Of a stretch of 25,207 nucleotides of DNA, positions 16,048 to 23,845 are shown piece after piece. Source of the stretch: a virus; IMG/VR virus record IMGVR_UViG_3300030098_003617, positions 1,811 to 27,017 of that record. One strand, written 5' to 3'. Made by a program: the position numbers and the translations under genes. The notes beneath the pieces are model-generated. The model made no database searches. It was not told where the DNA came from and saw only the letters and a program-made list of their open reading frames with translations. Positions within the stretch are counted from its first letter, which is position 1; every line of letters begins with the position of its first letter.

Positions 16048-18333
16048 TTATTTTACCTTTGTTCTAACTAAATCAGAATCATCCTCAGCTATTCTAATGT
16101 GTTCTGACTTAATATTTCCACCTAATTCAATGATTTGCATTTTTCTTTCGTGTTCTGCTTGAGCGAACTCTTCTTTCATTTTAAACTCAGCTTCTATTTT
16201 TTGCATTTCCATTTGAGCTTCCATCTGTTTCATTTGAGCATCAGACTGAGCTTTTGCTTGAATAGAAGCTTGTTGTTGCTCAGCATTAGCTCTAGCGTTT
16301 TCTTGAGCTGCTTTAGCAGCTTCTTCAGCATACTTTTTACGTCTTATCATAAGTAATTGATTAGCTAATTTTATGTTAGTTATATTTCTAATCATAATAG
16401 CGTCCTCTAATCTTAATGCTTGTTGTTGTATTGACACTTGAATATTTTGTTCTAATAAAGCTTTTTGCTCATCATCTGGCAAAGGTTCAATCATAATTCC
16501 ATAATCAGCCATAGTAACATCCTTACTAACCTCAATAGCTTTCATGTTAAATTCTCCTATAGCTTGCACATACCCTTTATAAGCTCCTTTATATTTAACA
16601 ATATCTTGAACTCTTAAAGCTACACTTTTAGCGGTGTTTTGAGTTATAGATAATAAAGCTTGATTAATCCATCTTGTAGCGTTGTTAGACGCTAGTAAAG
16701 CCATTTTTTGAACACCAACTAAAGATTCTTTATCAGGTTGACTTGCGTCTCTAGCTTCGTTTATTCCTGTAACATCACGAAGCATTTGTAAGTTATATTG
16801 ATATATAGCAATCAACTCTTGTAAAGCTCCACCAATACCTCCCCCTAACTCTTGTATAGGTATTGAACCACTTGGACTTCCGTCATCCTGTTGTTGCCTG
16901 TAATATAAATTACCTGTTTGTTGATATATATCTTGAACCTCAATAGGAGTGAATGTTCCTCCATCTCCCTTACCCACATTCTCTATAGCTCCTAGTTCAA
17001 TAGCTGAACCTTTTGGTTTTGCTTTAGACATTAAATGTTGTATTTTAAGATGACATAATTGTATTTGGTCAGCAAAAGGAATCATTCTTTCTACAAGGCT
17101 TTTGTTGTTCATATTCAGTATGTTAGGAGCATATATAGAATAAGGTAACACAGCTTTTGCTAAGTTACTTTTAGGTCTTAATATATTAGTGGCTAATCCA
17201 TAATCAAATATATAATCTGTACCTATAATCCATTTTCCTTTGTAAATATTTTCAACAGAAGTCTTTAATTGTGTTCTTTTTTGTTCTGAGTTTTTTGGTT
17301 CTTTATAATCTTTCTTTTTTTTATGAACAGAATACCCTCCATATTTATTTTCTTTCTTTTCATAATGTAAGTCATCTACAGTTTTATATAACCCATCTAA
17401 AACAGCTATTTTAAAAGTGTCATATTCATGTATTTCATACTCATTATAATAATTAGTTCCTTTTCCTAAGTTTTTAGGGTTCCCATATTTACCAGCATTA
17501 TTCCTAGCTATCTCCATATACTCTTCTTCTGTAAACTCGTCACCAGCTAATCTTTTTAATTCATGTATAGTTAAATATATAACTTCTCCAGCATGTTGTA
17601 TGTTTTTAAAATCTGGTCTTGAAGAATGAGATGTGATTAAATTATTAGGGTCTACATATCTAATTGTTAATTTACCATCTTCAACATCTGTTTTACTTGC
17701 TCCAATATTTAAAACAACTAAATCTCTAGATATTCTTTTCTTTACCTCGTCCCAATCGTTTAAATAAAACGTCAACTCAATACCCTCCTCCATAGCTATT
17801 TCAGTCATTTGTTTATAATTTAAACTCATATATAAGTCTAATTCTTCTTGACTTTCAGGTAAATCTTCATTTCCAGCGTCAAAAGGTAATCCTGATAAAC
17901 CAGCAACTTCAGCGTGAAAGCCCTTTAATTCCATAGCTGCTAATTTTTTTAATTTATCTTCCGCTCTTTTATCTTTAGAAATTTGGTCAATAGCTGTACA
18001 TTTTATTTTGTATTCTTGGTTTGTTAATCCTCCAACAATAACATCTACAAATTTTGGTATAACAGGAACAACTTCCCAATTTAAATTAAGATAAGAACTG
18101 TCTCCATTAGCTCCTAATAAATCTTTATATTGTTCAATAGACTGCATCCCTTCAGCATACTCTCTATATCTTGTATATCTCTCATTACGAGAAATATACG
18201 AGCCGCTTCCTATCTCTTCATCAGCCCACTCTTTATACATCCTTTTAAAGTATTGTATCCCATATTTTTTTTCTAATTTCTCTTCTCGTGAAACGAAAGG
18301 GCTTGGGTAACCGCTAAATGCTGTTTTTGCCAT
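16048..18333 (-). CDS. Portal protein
   Basis: This 761-aa protein is long for a portal but normal for crAss-like phages. It starts directly after terL, sharing one base in a TAATG junction, which suggests translational coupling. The N-terminal third (residues 40-110) has the YREYAEGMQSIEQYKDLLG and VVPVIPKFVDVIVGGL pattern that I associate with crAss-like portals. The middle region 230-340 is the clip/wing candidate. Residues 515-600 include IAIYQYNLQMLRDVTGINEA and SLVGVQKMALLASNNATRW, typical of the portal stem/crown helices. The C-terminus (about 660-745) is an Ala/Gln/Glu-rich coiled coil. It should form the dodecameric DNA channel at one capsid vertex and be the terminase docking site. 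Confidence 0.85.
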   Translation of the reverse strand: MAKTAFSGYPSPFVSREEKLEKKYGIQYFKRMYKEWADEEIGSGSYISRNERYTRYREYAEGMQSIEQYKDLLGANGDSSYLNLNWEVVPVIPKFVDVIVGGLTNQEYKIKCTAIDQISKDKRAEDKLKKLAAMELKGFHAEVAGLSGLPFDAGNEDLPESQEELDLYMSLNYKQMTEIAMEEGIELTFYLNDWDEVKKRISRDLVVLNIGASKTDVEDGKLTIRYVDPNNLITSHSSRPDFKNIQHAGEVIYLTIHELKRLAGDEFTEEEYMEIARNNAGKYGNPKNLGKGTNYYNEYEIHEYDTFKIAVLDGLYKTVDDLHYEKKENKYGGYSVHKKKKDYKEPKNSEQKRTQLKTSVENIYKGKWIIGTDYIFDYGLATNILRPKSNLAKAVLPYSIYAPNILNMNNKSLVERMIPFADQIQLCHLKIQHLMSKAKPKGSAIELGAIENVGKGDGGTFTPIEVQDIYQQTGNLYYRQQQDDGSPSGSIPIQELGGGIGGALQELIAIYQYNLQMLRDVTGINEARDASQPDKESLVGVQKMALLASNNATRWINQALLSITQNTAKSVALRVQDIVKYKGAYKGYVQAIGEFNMKAIEVSKDVTMADYGIMIEPLPDDEQKALLEQNIQVSIQQQALRLEDAIMIRNITNIKLANQLLMIRRKKYAEEAAKAAQENARANAEQQQASIQAKAQSDAQMKQMEAQMEMQKIEAEFKMKEEFAQAEHERKMQIIELGGNIKSEHIRIAEDDSDLVRTKVK

Positions 18334-20354
18334 TATTTAATTATTTTAGATATTTTTCCATTATTATTGTATCTTCTAACAAAGGGTTCTGTTCTTTTTA
18401 TTTCAACCTTTGGTTTTATATGTTTTTGAGATGCTAACAAGGTAAATCCACTTGCCATACTAGCATCATATTTTGTTCTATTGTTTACATCAAACTCTAA
18501 CCAGTCTTTTAACAACTCATAAAAAAACACTCTACCGATTGCTCCTTCTTCGTTTATACCCACATAATCGTAAATATAAGCTTGTATAGAATCTACTAAA
18601 GCATTTGCAACAGCTAATCCAGTTGCTGGTATTCCAACTTCAGTTTGTTTTTTACTGAATTTAGTGTGAGTTGATTCTGGTCTAGCCATTAAATATTTTT
18701 CATACCCTCTTCTTTTAAAGTATTGTATTAATCCTATTTTGTTATTTTCAACTAATATAGGACACCCATAAAAAATACATTGCATTAACATATCTTCAAA
18801 AAATATCTCTGCTTTAGGAGGTCTATGTATATATTGAGATACAAACATATGAGAATCGTCTTGTTCGTGAGCATTAAATTTTCTAAAAATATAACTTGCC
18901 GCGTCTGACCTTCTTCCATCTGTAGTTACATCATGGTCAAAAGGGTCACATCCAGATACAAATTCTAATTCATTACCAGGATACTTGTTTCCAAATTTTA
19001 TAATTTGAGAGTTTATTTTATTTGAATCTGGCAATAAAACAACTGACCACTTTCCTTTTTTATCTGGCCTCCAAACCACTTTAGTGTCTTTAATTCCATT
19101 GTTCCAAACAAAATTTCCTCTTGTAACCATCTTACCTCCAGAACCTTCTATATAATCTATTTGTTGATATATTCTTTCGGAGTCAAATAAACAATCATCT
19201 GTACTAACACGAAAAGCTTCTTCTGGAGTCCAAGGGAACTGTCTTTTATGTTCAGCTAATTTATTTGTGTCATTTGTAAATCCCTCTCTTATCTTTTTTA
19301 AATACTCTTTACTACCAATAGTAATTTCATCTCCATATTTATCAAATACTTTAGATTTTGGGTTTTCTATAACACTTTGTCCATACTCATCTATAAAACC
19401 TTCAAATCCATCATAAGCAGGAGTGAAGTATCTATAAAGTCCTGATTTAGTTCTATTTGTACCAATAACCTTATCTTCTTGGTCTGAATCATCCCATATA
19501 TCTTTAAAAGCTTTACCTCCCTCTTCCATCTCATTAACTGTTGATGGTAAAAAAGCTTTACCAATAATCTTTCTACCTTGAGAAAGAGCTGGTTTAACTA
19601 TTTGCCAATTCTTTGAACAATCAGCTTCTAACCATTTACCACCCTCATCTGATATAAAAGTTTTTAGTTTTTCCCCATCATATGAATTGTTCTTGGTGTT
19701 TCTCCAATCTATCTGACTATCTAATGCTTCTGAGGCTTTAACCTGTTTGTTATTTTTTGTAATTCTTTCCCCAGGTTTCTTAAAAGATAGTACAGTTTTA
19801 GGAGAGTCCGTTCCTTCAATAATAGGTTGAAAGAAGTACGGTAACTTTCTAAAAATGTAAACAACCTTGTCAAAGAGCTTTTTAGCGTCACTACCTGTTT
19901 TACTTAATATACCTCCATTTGAATTATAAGAAAGAGTTATATCATGTAATACAATAGAAGCAGCTTTCCAAGACGCACCCTGCCTTCTATGTTTTGGCAT
20001 TATTAACCCAAAACTATTATTATCTTTTCTAACATTATCCCATACAAGAAAAAATCTTCTATCCCTATCCCAATAATCTGGATAACCAATATCAATTTTA
20101 CACCAGTTTAAATAATAATAATGAGCTCCAGTTATATAAGTGGGAGTCCCATTATTCATAAACCAAACACCATTTAATCTTCTTTCAAACTCTTGTTCAA
20201 TAAATTTATTTTTCTTTATCTCACTAAGAGAATCCCAATTATCTGGTATAGGATTTCTTGTCCACCTTTGGTTCTTTTTAGATTTGTTATAACCTATAAT
20301 AGAACTCTTCTTCGGCTTCTTAGGTAAATTAATTTCTATTCCTTGTATATTCAT
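18333..20354 (-). CDS. terL: Terminase large subunit
   Basis: The 673-aa product carries the ATPase and nuclease parts of a packaging motor. A Walker A-like segment MPKHRRQGASWKA is at 119-131. Walker B lies in KTFISDEGGK (231-240), with D236 and E237 as the metal/catalytic pair. The coupling motif region RQFPWTPEEAF is at 371-381. The C-terminal RNase H-like nuclease begins at EFVSGCDPFD (464-473), with D470 the probable first metal ligand and VENN near 535 the next acidic position. Length and motif spelling match crAss-like terminases. It is the first gene of the leftward late block, with a -7 promoter box 16 bases upstream of its ATG. No separate small terminase subunit is recognisable nearby. 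Confidence 0.92.
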   Translation of the reverse strand: MNIQGIEINLPKKPKKSSIIGYNKSKKNQRWTRNPIPDNWDSLSEIKKNKFIEQEFERRLNGVWFMNNGTPTYITGAHYYYLNWCKIDIGYPDYWDRDRRFFLVWDNVRKDNNSFGLIMPKHRRQGASWKAASIVLHDITLSYNSNGGILSKTGSDAKKLFDKVVYIFRKLPYFFQPIIEGTDSPKTVLSFKKPGERITKNNKQVKASEALDSQIDWRNTKNNSYDGEKLKTFISDEGGKWLEADCSKNWQIVKPALSQGRKIIGKAFLPSTVNEMEEGGKAFKDIWDDSDQEDKVIGTNRTKSGLYRYFTPAYDGFEGFIDEYGQSVIENPKSKVFDKYGDEITIGSKEYLKKIREGFTNDTNKLAEHKRQFPWTPEEAFRVSTDDCLFDSERIYQQIDYIEGSGGKMVTRGNFVWNNGIKDTKVVWRPDKKGKWSVVLLPDSNKINSQIIKFGNKYPGNELEFVSGCDPFDHDVTTDGRRSDAASYIFRKFNAHEQDDSHMFVSQYIHRPPKAEIFFEDMLMQCIFYGCPILVENNKIGLIQYFKRRGYEKYLMARPESTHTKFSKKQTEVGIPATGLAVANALVDSIQAYIYDYVGINEEGAIGRVFFYELLKDWLEFDVNNRTKYDASMASGFTLLASQKHIKPKVEIKRTEPFVRRYNNNGKISKIIK

Positions 20355-20417: not shown

Positions 20418-20456
20418 TATCTATTAAATTATTTATTAACAAAAAAAAACAAAAAA

Positions 20457-21551
20457 ATGGGAAATTTTATGCGAGTGCGTACAAAAAAGTACGCAGGATT
20501 AAGCGTGGTAAATAAAGGCGCGACCTTTCACCAGGTCGGGATGTCTACAGACCACGTTATTTATGGTTATGATAACTTAGAGCTTATCGGAACCATTACA
20601 GGAAGTGATGATAGCGCTGACCAAATTGACATCACTCTAAACTCAGGGATAACACTTACTGCTGGTGAAGTCATTCAGCTTGGTGATAGAACAGGAGTTG
20701 ATACAACTATTAATTTATCTAGTGGAGATGTTAGTTCTGGAGCTGGATATACTGTCGCTAATGCGGGTGCTGGTACAGGCTCAACAGGGATTACGATAGA
20801 GCTTTCAAAAGGCTCAGGATACATTAATGTAACTAACGACACTTCTGGACTATCACTTCCTTTATATAGAAGAACAGGTAGATTACTTTATGCTGATATG
20901 GGTTCTGCTGCAGCTCCTATTACAGTGGAAACAGAACAAGTGGCTGTATATCCTGCTGGGGATGCTATCCATAAATCATCAAATCAATTTCTAGATGTTA
21001 GATTAAAATCTAAAAATGGAGTTGCTTACGACCCTACTGCTACTGACCCAGATGGTGATGGAGGTGCTCTAATGATTAATCTTGATAGAATTATTTTAAT
21101 GTATGAAGGAGCTTTATCTACAACTTCAGCAACTGCTGAAGATTGGGTTATATGGTATGACACTTCAAAAACAAATAACGCTGGATTAGATTCACCTTTT
21201 GTAGATATATTAGAATGTGAAACTGACTTAGATGGAACGGAAGAGATTTTTGTAAATCATATTGGTGGATTAGGAAATTTTCTTGATATGAAAAAATTAT
21301 CTGTAAATGGACAGATGGTTGCTTTTCCAGACATTAGTCTTTCTGGAGTTGTAAGAACTAAGAATGTTGTTAGCGCTATTCAGGCTGAGACAGCTGGTAC
21401 AGCTTCATTTATAGCTAATACAGAAGCTGATGCAGGTGACACTATTATGAAAATAAAAGGTTCTGGTAAACATGGATTTAGTATATTAGTTGTTGATGAC
21501 AATTTAGCTGAGGTTGCTGGTAAGACTGATTCTGATAATTTATTAGAATAG
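20457..21551 (+). CDS. Probable virion protein, beta-rich, function unknown
   Basis: From ATG 20457 the product is 364 aa; ATG 20469 (MRVRTKKYAG) would give 360. An upstream in-frame TTG at 20415 lies inside the promoter -7 box and cannot be the start. After a short basic N-terminus the protein is rich in Gly/Thr/Ser/Asp and predicted beta strands, with few Lys, like phage decoration or fibre-base proteins. It is transcribed alone, divergently from terL, and ends at a bidirectional terminator, so it is a single-gene unit that could be strongly expressed. The first ~100 bases are clearly more GC-rich than the surroundings and contain two perfect hairpins. I do not recognise the family; structural protein is an inference. 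Confidence 0.6.
   Translation: MGNFMRVRTKKYAGLSVVNKGATFHQVGMSTDHVIYGYDNLELIGTITGSDDSADQIDITLNSGITLTAGEVIQLGDRTGVDTTINLSSGDVSSGAGYTVANAGAGTGSTGITIELSKGSGYINVTNDTSGLSLPLYRRTGRLLYADMGSAAAPITVETEQVAVYPAGDAIHKSSNQFLDVRLKSKNGVAYDPTATDPDGDGGALMINLDRIILMYEGALSTTSATAEDWVIWYDTSKTNNAGLDSPFVDILECETDLDGTEEIFVNHIGGLGNFLDMKKLSVNGQMVAFPDISLSGVVRTKNVVSAIQAETAGTASFIANTEADAGDTIMKIKGSGKHGFSILVVDDNLAEVAGKTDSDNLLE
20476..20538 (+). other. Two hairpins inside the start of the 364-aa gene
   Basis: TGCGTAC (20476-20482) pairs perfectly with GTACGCA (20489-20495) around six A. CGACCT (20521-20526) pairs with AGGTCG (20533-20538) around TTCACC. Both lie within 82 bases of the ATG, in a locally GC-rich stretch. They could affect mRNA stability or initiation. 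Confidence 0.6.
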
Positions 21552-21572: not shown

Positions 21573-21599
21573 AAAAAGGGACTTTATGTCCCTTTTTTT
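21573..21599. terminator. Bidirectional intrinsic terminator
   Basis: AAAAAGGGAC and GTCCCTTTTT pair perfectly around TTTAT, with T runs at the 3' side on both strands. It sits between two convergent genes ending at 21551 (+) and 21598 (-), so it serves both. Confidence 0.9.
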
Positions 21600-21873
21600 A
21601 TTTTTTTACATTTTTAATATCTATTAAGTCTTGACACTTCTCGTATTCTTCTAGGTATATAAAGTGGTCTAGAAGTGTGTCTATTACCTCATTTTCATTA
21701 ATATAAGGGTCATATGGGTCAAATATTAACCCAAACCCTTCTTCTAATTGAGCTTCTATTAACTCGTCAAATGTTATTTGTTGAGTTATAAGAAGATATG
21801 AATAATGCATTGTTTTATTAATAATTTCTTCTTTATGACGATAATCCTCTAGTTTATCTAACGGTGTTTTCAT
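21598..21873 (-). CDS. Unrecognised small acidic protein
   Basis: The 91-aa protein is acidic and helical, with the pattern FDELIEAQLEEGFGLIFDPY followed by an aromatic and acidic C-terminal half (TLLDHFIYLEEYEKCQDLID). I do not recognise it. It is the last gene of the minus-strand operon. Its ATG overlaps the previous gene's TGA by four bases, and its stop abuts the bidirectional terminator. It may be a regulator or a partner for one of the operon's other proteins, but nothing in the sequence shows which. Confidence 0.6.
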   Translation of the reverse strand: MKTPLDKLEDYRHKEEIINKTMHYSYLLITQQITFDELIEAQLEEGFGLIFDPYDPYINENEVIDTLLDHFIYLEEYEKCQDLIDIKNVKK

Positions 21874-22172
21874 TTTGCAAATTTTTCAGCGGCACCACCT
21901 TTAAAGTGGTTATCCTGGTTATTATTTTCCTTCACTTTTTCCCCCCTCATTCTTTGGTCTAATTTAACCAAAGCTTCCATCATTTCTTGAGCATCCATAA
22001 ATGCTTTTTTCTTAGACTCTAATGCGTTTTTACGTCTTTCATCAGCAACGTCATCCGCTATAGGTCTTCTAACATCCGCTATTAAGGTTGAGATTCCTTC
22101 TTTAGCCGCGTCTAAAAGTTCACTAAGAGTGTCTTCTACATATATTTGTATTTCAGTTTTTTCTTCTTTCAT
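21870..22172 (-). CDS. Unrecognised small helical protein
   Basis: I choose the ATG at 22172-22170, giving 100 aa. It forms a TAATG junction with the stop of the GroES-like gene, whereas the upstream ATG at 22187 would lie inside that gene. The product is mostly helical, starting MKEEKTEIQIYVEDTLSELL. It has a charged middle (RRPIADDVADERRKNALESK) and a possible amphipathic helix AFMDAQEMMEALVKLDQRMR. The C-terminus is polar. Size and character would fit a small terminase-like or regulatory protein, but I cannot support either. Confidence 0.6.
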   Translation of the reverse strand: MKEEKTEIQIYVEDTLSELLDAAKEGISTLIADVRRPIADDVADERRKNALESKKKAFMDAQEMMEALVKLDQRMRGEKVKENNNQDNHFKGGAAEKFAK

Positions 22173-22744
22173 TAATTTAAAACACACATTACATTACTAT
22201 TTCTCATTCTATAATAATGATTATCGTTAATTTTCATTTTATAATTAGAGTTTTTCTCAAAGAAAACTAAATCTCCTATTTTAAAATCTTCTGAAAATTG
22301 ATTAATGTATTTAACCACCCCTCTATCTATTCTGTCTTCTTGTTTTATATTTGTAATTATACCATTATCAGATACTTCTTCTTTAGTCTTTAAAGGTTCT
22401 ACAAATATATAATCCATTAACATAGTTATTTCCCCGTCCCTTTCATATGCGTATATTTGGTCTATATCACACTGATAATATTTTTCTCCTTCTAATTCTA
22501 TAGGTTTATCTATAACAAGATGATGTATAAAAACTTTATCTCCTTTTTGTAAATTTAAATTATCTTTAACTCTTTTGTTTGGATAAGGAGGGGTATGTTT
22601 TACTATACCGTGTTGTCTAGCGTGCCATAATCTATCTATTTCTGTATCTAACCATAGTTCTGTACCGTCAGACATTTTATATTTATTTTCTGTTTCAGTT
22701 TCTAATTCTATTAGAACTGTATTACCCATTGAACTTTTTATCAT
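22172..22744 (-). CDS. Tandem GroES-like co-chaperonin (two domains)
   Basis: The 190-aa protein has two GroES-type barrels in one chain. The C-terminal half (about 106-190) aligns well: MLMDYIFVEPLKTKEEVSDN then GII, a mobile-loop-like segment matching GroES GGIVLT. It continues with RGVVKYINQ, the conserved KIGDLVFF (KVGDIVIF in GroES), and an ending RMRNSNVMCVLN like ES-I-AIV. The N-terminal half (about 7-100) repeats the plan: GNTVLIELETETEN, HGIV, QKGDKVFIHH, and YYQCDIDQIYAY, but without a clear mobile loop. Single-domain phage co-chaperonins such as T4 gp31 (111 aa) help host GroEL fold the capsid protein. The double arrangement resembles chloroplast Cpn20. The role is inferred: assisting the host chaperonin with virion proteins. 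The overlaps with both neighbours point to coupled translation. Confidence 0.75.
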   Translation of the reverse strand: MIKSSMGNTVLIELETETENKYKMSDGTELWLDTEIDRLWHARQHGIVKHTPPYPNKRVKDNLNLQKGDKVFIHHLVIDKPIELEGEKYYQCDIDQIYAYERDGEITMLMDYIFVEPLKTKEEVSDNGIITNIKQEDRIDRGVVKYINQFSEDFKIGDLVFFEKNSNYKMKINDNHYYRMRNSNVMCVLN

Positions 22745-23028: not shown

Positions 23029-23295
23029 TTACCACTTGCCTTTTGGGCATTTTTCAACATGCCATTTTGCCTTAACAGCCATTACACAACCACATACGGT
23101 ACATGTTCCATTAATTTCATCAAGAAGCTCACAGGAATCACATACAGTAAGTCTTTCTTTATACTTGTCTTGTGGAGTGTTTTTAAATCCAGATTTAGCA
23201 TAATCTAATATTGATTTGCTTAGGTTCCAAGCTTTTTTAATAGTACTTGGTTCTTTTGGTTCTTCATTTAATATTCTCGGCTTTTTCTTTTTCAT
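23029..23295 (-). CDS. Small zinc-ribbon protein
   Basis: The 88-aa protein has a Lys/Pro-rich N-terminus, an amphipathic helix (residues 20-38), and a cysteine-rich C-terminal half. The cysteines are C52 and C55 (CDSC), C65, C68 and C70 (CTVCGC), and C83 in the terminal EKCPKGKW. The order CxxC...CxxCGC...K...CPxGKW is a recurring small phage zinc-ribbon arrangement. The CPxGKW end is usual and the function is unknown. It is the first gene of the minus-strand operon and has a promoter -7 box 19 bases upstream. Zinc binding is inferred from the cysteine spacing. Confidence 0.7.
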   Translation of the reverse strand: MKKKKPRILNEEPKEPSTIKKAWNLSKSILDYAKSGFKNTPQDKYKERLTVCDSCELLDEINGTCTVCGCVMAVKAKWHVEKCPKGKW

Positions 23296-23548: not shown

Positions 23549-23845
23549 ATGCCTAAAGCTAAAAGAGATTATAAAAAAGAATATCGTAACGAAAAGAAGT
23601 CTAGACGTAAAAGACGTGTGGAGTTAAATCGTTACAATAGACAAAAGGGTACATACGGTAATGGAGATGGTTTAGACGCTTCTCATTGTGGAGGTAAGAT
23701 AACAGGGTTTGTTAAAGCTTCTAAGAATAGAGGTAAGAAAGGAGAGGGTGGTAGAAAGAAAGGTGTTAAACATAACTATCCAAAGAATAGAAAGTCACCA
23801 AGTACAGGAACTAGAAAATCTAGAGGTACTGGGAAAAGAAAATAA
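23549..23845 (+). CDS. Very basic 98-aa DNA-binding-like protein
   Basis: The product has close to 40% Lys/Arg. The N-terminal helix KRDYKKEYRNEKKSRRKRRV resembles the opening of small basic phage proteins of the HNH-like/structural type (KRDY.KEY). The middle reads GNGDGLDASHCGGKITGF then KASKNRGKKGEGGRKKG. A D.SH...N-like arrangement recalls HNH-related basic proteins, but the full catalytic set is not evident. The tail is Ser/Lys/Arg. It is the third gene of the cassette. A role in DNA binding or condensation is inferred from composition; nuclease activity is unsupported. Confidence 0.65.
   Translation: MPKAKRDYKKEYRNEKKSRRKRRVELNRYNRQKGTYGNGDGLDASHCGGKITGFVKASKNRGKKGEGGRKKGVKHNYPKNRKSPSTGTRKSRGTGKRK

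Follow-up and report, generated by a model that had tools for sequence, protein, structure and literature searches.

The 190-aa product of an open reading frame in the stretch of viral DNA analysed here (25,207 nt, hereafter the window) consists of two GroES (Cpn10) domains arranged head to tail, and we think it probable that this protein is a Cpn20-like phage co-chaperonin with a putative role in virion assembly. The virus is represented by a 27-kb fragment which carries TerL, portal and capsid genes of the crAss-like/phi38:1-like type, and the gene lies in a cassette of late genes near TerL (Table 1).

Table 1. Location in the window of the tandem GroES gene, its domains and loops, and the neighbouring cassette genes.
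Feature	Position	Strand	Remarks
Tandem (two-domain) GroES, Cpn20-like co-chaperonin (putative), 190 aa	22172..22744	-	ATG start
N-terminal GroES domain, residues 1-104	22433..22744	-	Divergent; invariant GDxxxxHH
C-terminal GroES domain, residues 105-190	22175..22432	-	Pfam Cpn10 1.1e-10 for C half alone
N-half mobile-loop-like segment DGTELWLDT, residues 26-34	22643..22669	-	Family-wide xLxLN motif
C-half mobile loop, residues 117-142	22319..22396	-	Contains NGIIT; pLDDT 69-71
IRKI partner gene, 89 aa	22741..23010	-	ATGA four-base overlap with tandem GroES start
~100-aa protein, putative packaging partner	21870..22172	-	Start shares one base with tandem stop (TAATG)
91-aa protein	21598..21873	-	Overlaps ~100-aa gene; shared by close relatives of the window
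Terminase large subunit (TerL)	18333..20354	-	Downstream, same direction; PHROG 6681, 6.5e-150

Over its whole length the ORF matches Pfam Cpn10 (PF00166) at 3.5e-14 (53 bits against a cut-off of 21.1), a score driven by the C half, and residues 11-188 match PHROG 13932, 'co-chaperonin GroES', at 5.9e-18; a single-sequence phmmer search of the PDB with the 190-aa protein gave no match. The protein is kept in other contigs at 82, 78, 57 and 52% identity, and its relatives among IMG/VR proteins span from 82 to about 24%. Relatives are also encoded by cultured Cellulophaga and Flavobacterium phages. The first-pass annotation was right in assigning this DNA to a phage, and to one of flavobacterial type. 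In one relative (L041:3923-4792, a 293-aa frame) a single chain comprises three GroES domains, and the last of these bears a canonical SGLIIP loop; no GroEL was found on the 74.7-kb contig of this relative. Others (L042:3707-4534, also L043 and L045) carry a long charged insertion, probably a coiled-coil, at the loop position of the N domain.

With the family profile, the C half matches GroES chains in the PDB at 6e-10. The N half of the window sequence, taken alone, scores only 0.033 with Pfam Cpn10, below the curated cut-off; among 36 N halves from the family Cpn10 is the sole recurrent Pfam family, being found in 12 members (best 9.5e-5). By profile-profile comparison the N half matches single-domain phage GroES at E=2.8e-6, against 0.7 for a control consisting of an unrelated neighbour protein, and matches the C half at 9.8e-6, while the C half matches single-domain GroES at 8.6e-13. 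When the PDB was searched with an ordinary HMM built from the N halves, GroES chains were absent at E<=10 and the best matches were SH3 domains at 0.14; the N half is therefore far diverged. The profile-profile and fold evidence outweighs this miss, and on profiles and predicted fold the N half is a GroES domain. The motifs on which the fusion had been proposed (G-[I/V]-V, K-G-D-x-V-F, NGII and KIGDLVFF) can all be located in the protein, as G46-I-V48 and KGDKVF (67-72) in the N half, and as NGII (127-130), G142-V-V and KIGDLVFF in the C half. The most conserved feature of the whole family is the GDxxxxHH of the N half; we know of no GroEL-binding element to which it belongs, and it is counted against the co-chaperonin reading.

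An AlphaFold2 model based on 36 family sequences (pLDDT 85.9, pTM 0.80) has an identical strand order in both halves. Among PDB structures Foldseek ranks Cpn20, a tandem co-chaperonin (7ekq_R, E 4.7e-6, 204 columns), first, followed by single GroES chains, with chain 7ekq_Q, which we take to be Cpn23 from the known make-up of the complex, in fifth place; this search of the PDB returned no competing fold. Alignments to the tandem chains cover 204-213 columns with a TMq of 0.54-0.57, compared with about 0.39 from one-domain GroES, and therefore both halves contribute to the structural match. Among viral models, the best structural matches include the 200-aa 'cpn10' of Cellulophaga phi18:3. The earlier proposal of two fused GroES-like domains thus stands, as does the likeness to chloroplast Cpn20 that was noted with it; neither profile comparison nor structure prediction showed either half to be something other than a GroES barrel, the outcome that would have refuted the proposal.

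GroES binds GroEL through a mobile loop with a hydrophobic tripeptide after a Gly, as is established for GroES and gp31. A loop of this type is present in both halves of the window protein; in the C half the NGIIT stretch is presumably flexible, given its low pLDDT, and in the N half DGTELWLDT is modelled as an ordered, confident hairpin (E21-23/E29-31). At the N-half loop position a simple pattern detects a hydrophobic-x-hydrophobic-[ND] motif in 73 of 80 non-redundant members; the others have close variants, so that by eye the motif is present in nearly all. In several members the loop reads exactly SGLILN or DGLILN, the former as in single-domain GroES loops. In the C half an SG[IL] motif is picked up by pattern in about 19 of the 80, at least two of which have short loops and are doubtful. 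In most other members the C-half loop is shortened or gone, and it is missing from the large GroEL-bearing clade; this loss is counted against the co-chaperonin reading. The first-pass view of a single surviving mobile loop, placed in the C half, has to be given up, since the window protein has both, the N-half loop is family-wide and the C-half loop is the one often lost. Covariation of C-loop loss with the presence of a phage GroEL was considered but is not claimed: Fisher's test gives p values of 0.0005 and 0.08 under the two ways of scoring three relatives with shortened loops (G002, G004 and G005), as kept or as lost, and the clades are not independent.

The order IRKI (72-91 aa), tandem GroES, ~100-aa protein, TerL constitutes a cassette of late genes which is conserved across flavobacterial phages. 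In IRKI proteins an RK close to the N-terminus (IRKI) is invariant, and WK and E lie nearer the C-terminus. With one member as query, relatives were found to be encoded in at least 597 IMG/VR stretches, and the tandem gene lies directly downstream of IRKI in 80 of the 80 loci retrieved with this query; most tandem loci for which upstream sequence is available carry IRKI, the exceptions being the L040 and L042/L043 lineages and phi18:3. This co-conservation gives substance to the first-pass suggestion that small neighbouring genes could be partners of the co-chaperonin. The AlphaFold2 prediction for IRKI, of high confidence (pLDDT 90), is a small beta domain that includes a single helix; the model has no match in the PDB at E<=0.001, and searches of PHROG and Pfam gave no convincing family. 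The idea that IRKI is a further GroES domain was rejected, as profile comparison gave 0.17-0.7, no PDB fold was matched and the best sequence matches were unrelated and non-significant.

The ~100-aa protein belongs to a family of 157 loci; in phi38:1, Calle and elemo (L005, L006 and L088) it precedes TerL in one fused N-terminal extension, which ties the cassette to packaging. It is a candidate for a TerS-like (small-terminase-like) role. Between the cassette and TerL the window has, in the opposite orientation, a gene for 365 aa (20454-21551, +) with no Pfam or PHROG match, and at least one relative (L004) lacks this gene at that site. Upstream of the IRKI gene lies a gene for an 88-aa cysteine-rich protein (23029-23295, -; DUF6171 / PHROG 13558), and a 98-aa ORF whose product is very basic and K/R-rich is found at 23549-23845 (+).

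Chaperonin genes were surveyed in 18 relatives (genomes or contigs complete or of at least 50 kb), among which fragments make absences uncertain. GroEL, single-domain GroES and tandem GroES occur together in 12 (phi38:1, Calle, elemo, ctfjg026, G001, G010 and G028-G033), and a single-domain GroES accompanies the tandem protein in 14. In phi38:1 the three are separate genes in two places. Single and tandem GroES without GroEL are found in G009 and in Cellulophaga phi18:3 (NC_021794, Pachyviridae), where they are gp080 and gp096 respectively; the phi18:3 genome has neither GroEL nor a detectable IRKI gene. Neither GroEL nor single-domain GroES was found in G002, G005, G007 and G008, nor in the 27-kb fragment of the window, the latter being counted against the co-chaperonin reading. 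GroEL has already been reported in 36 of 78 environmental genomes of the phi38:1 group (PMC5332604), and both GroEL and GroES are reported from Maribacter phage Panino (PMC11590407). Virion-protein labels (MS-detected for phi18:3; structural, by homology, for phi38:1) are attached to several proteins but not to the tandem GroES, and this omission, albeit weak evidence, is consistent with an assembly factor that is not part of the virion.

Under the co-chaperonin reading, the tandem GroES would be made late in infection and would cap a GroEL ring, either that of the host or, in relatives encoding one, the phage's own, and virion or packaging proteins would be folded in the capped ring, much as gp23 is folded with the help of T4 gp31. 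Contact with GroEL may be made via the conserved N-half loop and, in the window phage, via the C-half NGII loop as well. Because two-domain subunits give even numbers, a seven-fold ring would either bear an asymmetric cap, of six domains or of eight, or be closed by three tandem subunits together with a single-domain GroES of phage or host origin, as with chloroplast Cpn20/Cpn10. As most large relatives encode a single-domain GroES, such a 3x2+1 lid of seven domains is possible. Support for the co-chaperonin reading comes from the GroES character of both halves, the tandem Cpn20/Cpn23 chains as best solved match, the retention of both loops, the late cassette with TerL and portal, the co-occurrence of GroEL and GroES, the GroES-like gp15 near TerL in crAss001, and the chloroplast precedent for seven-domain hetero-oligomers and for working concatamers of 6 or 8 domains (PMC5780408). 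A more elaborate version, which we put forward as speculation and consider unlikely, is a four-part phage chaperonin of GroEL, single GroES, tandem GroES and IRKI, with a 3x2+1 lid evolved independently of chloroplasts and an asymmetric or enlarged cage for head or packaging proteins, produced by non-equivalent tandem domains of which one has lost its loop.

The main rival is that the GroES fold has been recruited to packaging; the protein would then act in packaging or head assembly with IRKI and the TerL-associated small protein and would no longer work with GroEL. Such a role would suit the fixed position of the gene, which is translationally coupled to its cassette neighbours, IRKI and the small protein (in some phages part of TerL by fusion). 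It would also suit the retention of the tandem gene by phages that already have GroEL and GroES, where it is the third such gene and lies at a distance from them. The C-half mobile loop is deleted in the largest clade, and chaperonin binding does not explain the invariant GDxxxxHH. However, the N-half loop motif is conserved, up to the exact SGLILN, the window protein keeps both loops, and it is usual for phage GroES proteins to serve or lie near morphogenesis genes (T4 gp31, crAss001 gp15); we regard recruitment to packaging as rather unlikely.

The tandem subunit could instead enter a single-domain GroES ring of host or phage and alter or block the chaperonin cycle. In many members each subunit has lost one of its loops, which would leave fewer GroEL contacts; this and the co-occurrence with single GroES are in keeping with such a modulator or decoy, but structural and packaging genes as neighbours suit assembly better than host takeover, and we think this role improbable. 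It would be very surprising if the protein were a lid for another seven-fold machine such as ClpP: the top PDB match, 7ekq, is indeed the Chlamydomonas ClpP-cochaperonin complex, yet it is the co-chaperonin chains of that complex that are matched, and the main known role of Cpn20-type chains is with Cpn60.

The family of this gene is already annotated as PHROG 13932 'co-chaperonin GroES', which includes relatives of 200 aa such as Cellulophaga phi38:1 gp089, and the novelty first attributed to a double-domain phage form does not hold, as tandem forms in phi38:1, Calle, elemo and phi18:3 bear that annotation. No publication on a tandem GroES of phages was found in the open-access literature, though an earlier description is possible; as far as could be seen there, no account combines the IRKI partner and the tandem architecture with the coexistence of three chaperonin genes. 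Judged by the IMG/VR stretches with an IRKI relative, the tandem architecture is widespread in marine phages. Culturable phages with GroEL and single GroES, namely Cellulophaga phi38:1 and Flavobacterium elemo, offer a tractable system for mixed-lid assembly, so that the question of a two-domain lid on a seven-fold ring becomes askable in a phage, and a conserved but unnamed gene, IRKI, gains a candidate function.

Among cultured phages, the closest counterparts are the members of PHROG 13932 in Cellulophaga phi38:1 (gp089) and Calle (gp013), which match the window protein in length, two-domain architecture and place upstream of TerL; elemo gp30 and phi18:3 gp096 are related tandem proteins. 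Identity to the versions of phage isolates is only 24-26%, and unlike these the window protein has a canonical NGII loop in its C half, its close relatives being exclusively metagenomic. T4 gp31 is likewise a phage GroES homologue, with a presumed function in head-protein folding and an SGLII-type loop (L091); it has one domain whereas the window protein, when compared with this single-domain type, has two, and most relatives add a single-domain GroES. The 'putative 10 kDa chaperonin' of crAss001, gp15, is also GroES-like, has a GGII loop and is encoded shortly upstream of TerL, but differs in being a single domain with a C-terminal extension; bases 1-50000 of crAss001 contained no homologue of IRKI or of the tandem protein. 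Chloroplasts and apicoplasts are the described sources of tandem co-chaperonins, and how such subunits, with their even domain numbers, fit a ring of seven-fold symmetry is still debated there; hetero-oligomers of seven domains are formed in Chlamydomonas, and concatamers of 6 or 8 domains have been shown to be functional (PMC5780408). Chloroplast Cpn20, Cpn21 and Cpn23 also have two GroES domains head to tail, chains R and Q of 7ekq being the best solved match, and Cpn20, as in most large phage relatives, coexists with a single-domain partner. The phage protein shares about 15-17% identity with these chloroplast proteins and has a very diverged N half with GDxxxxHH; the duplication of GroES in phages was probably independent of that in chloroplasts.
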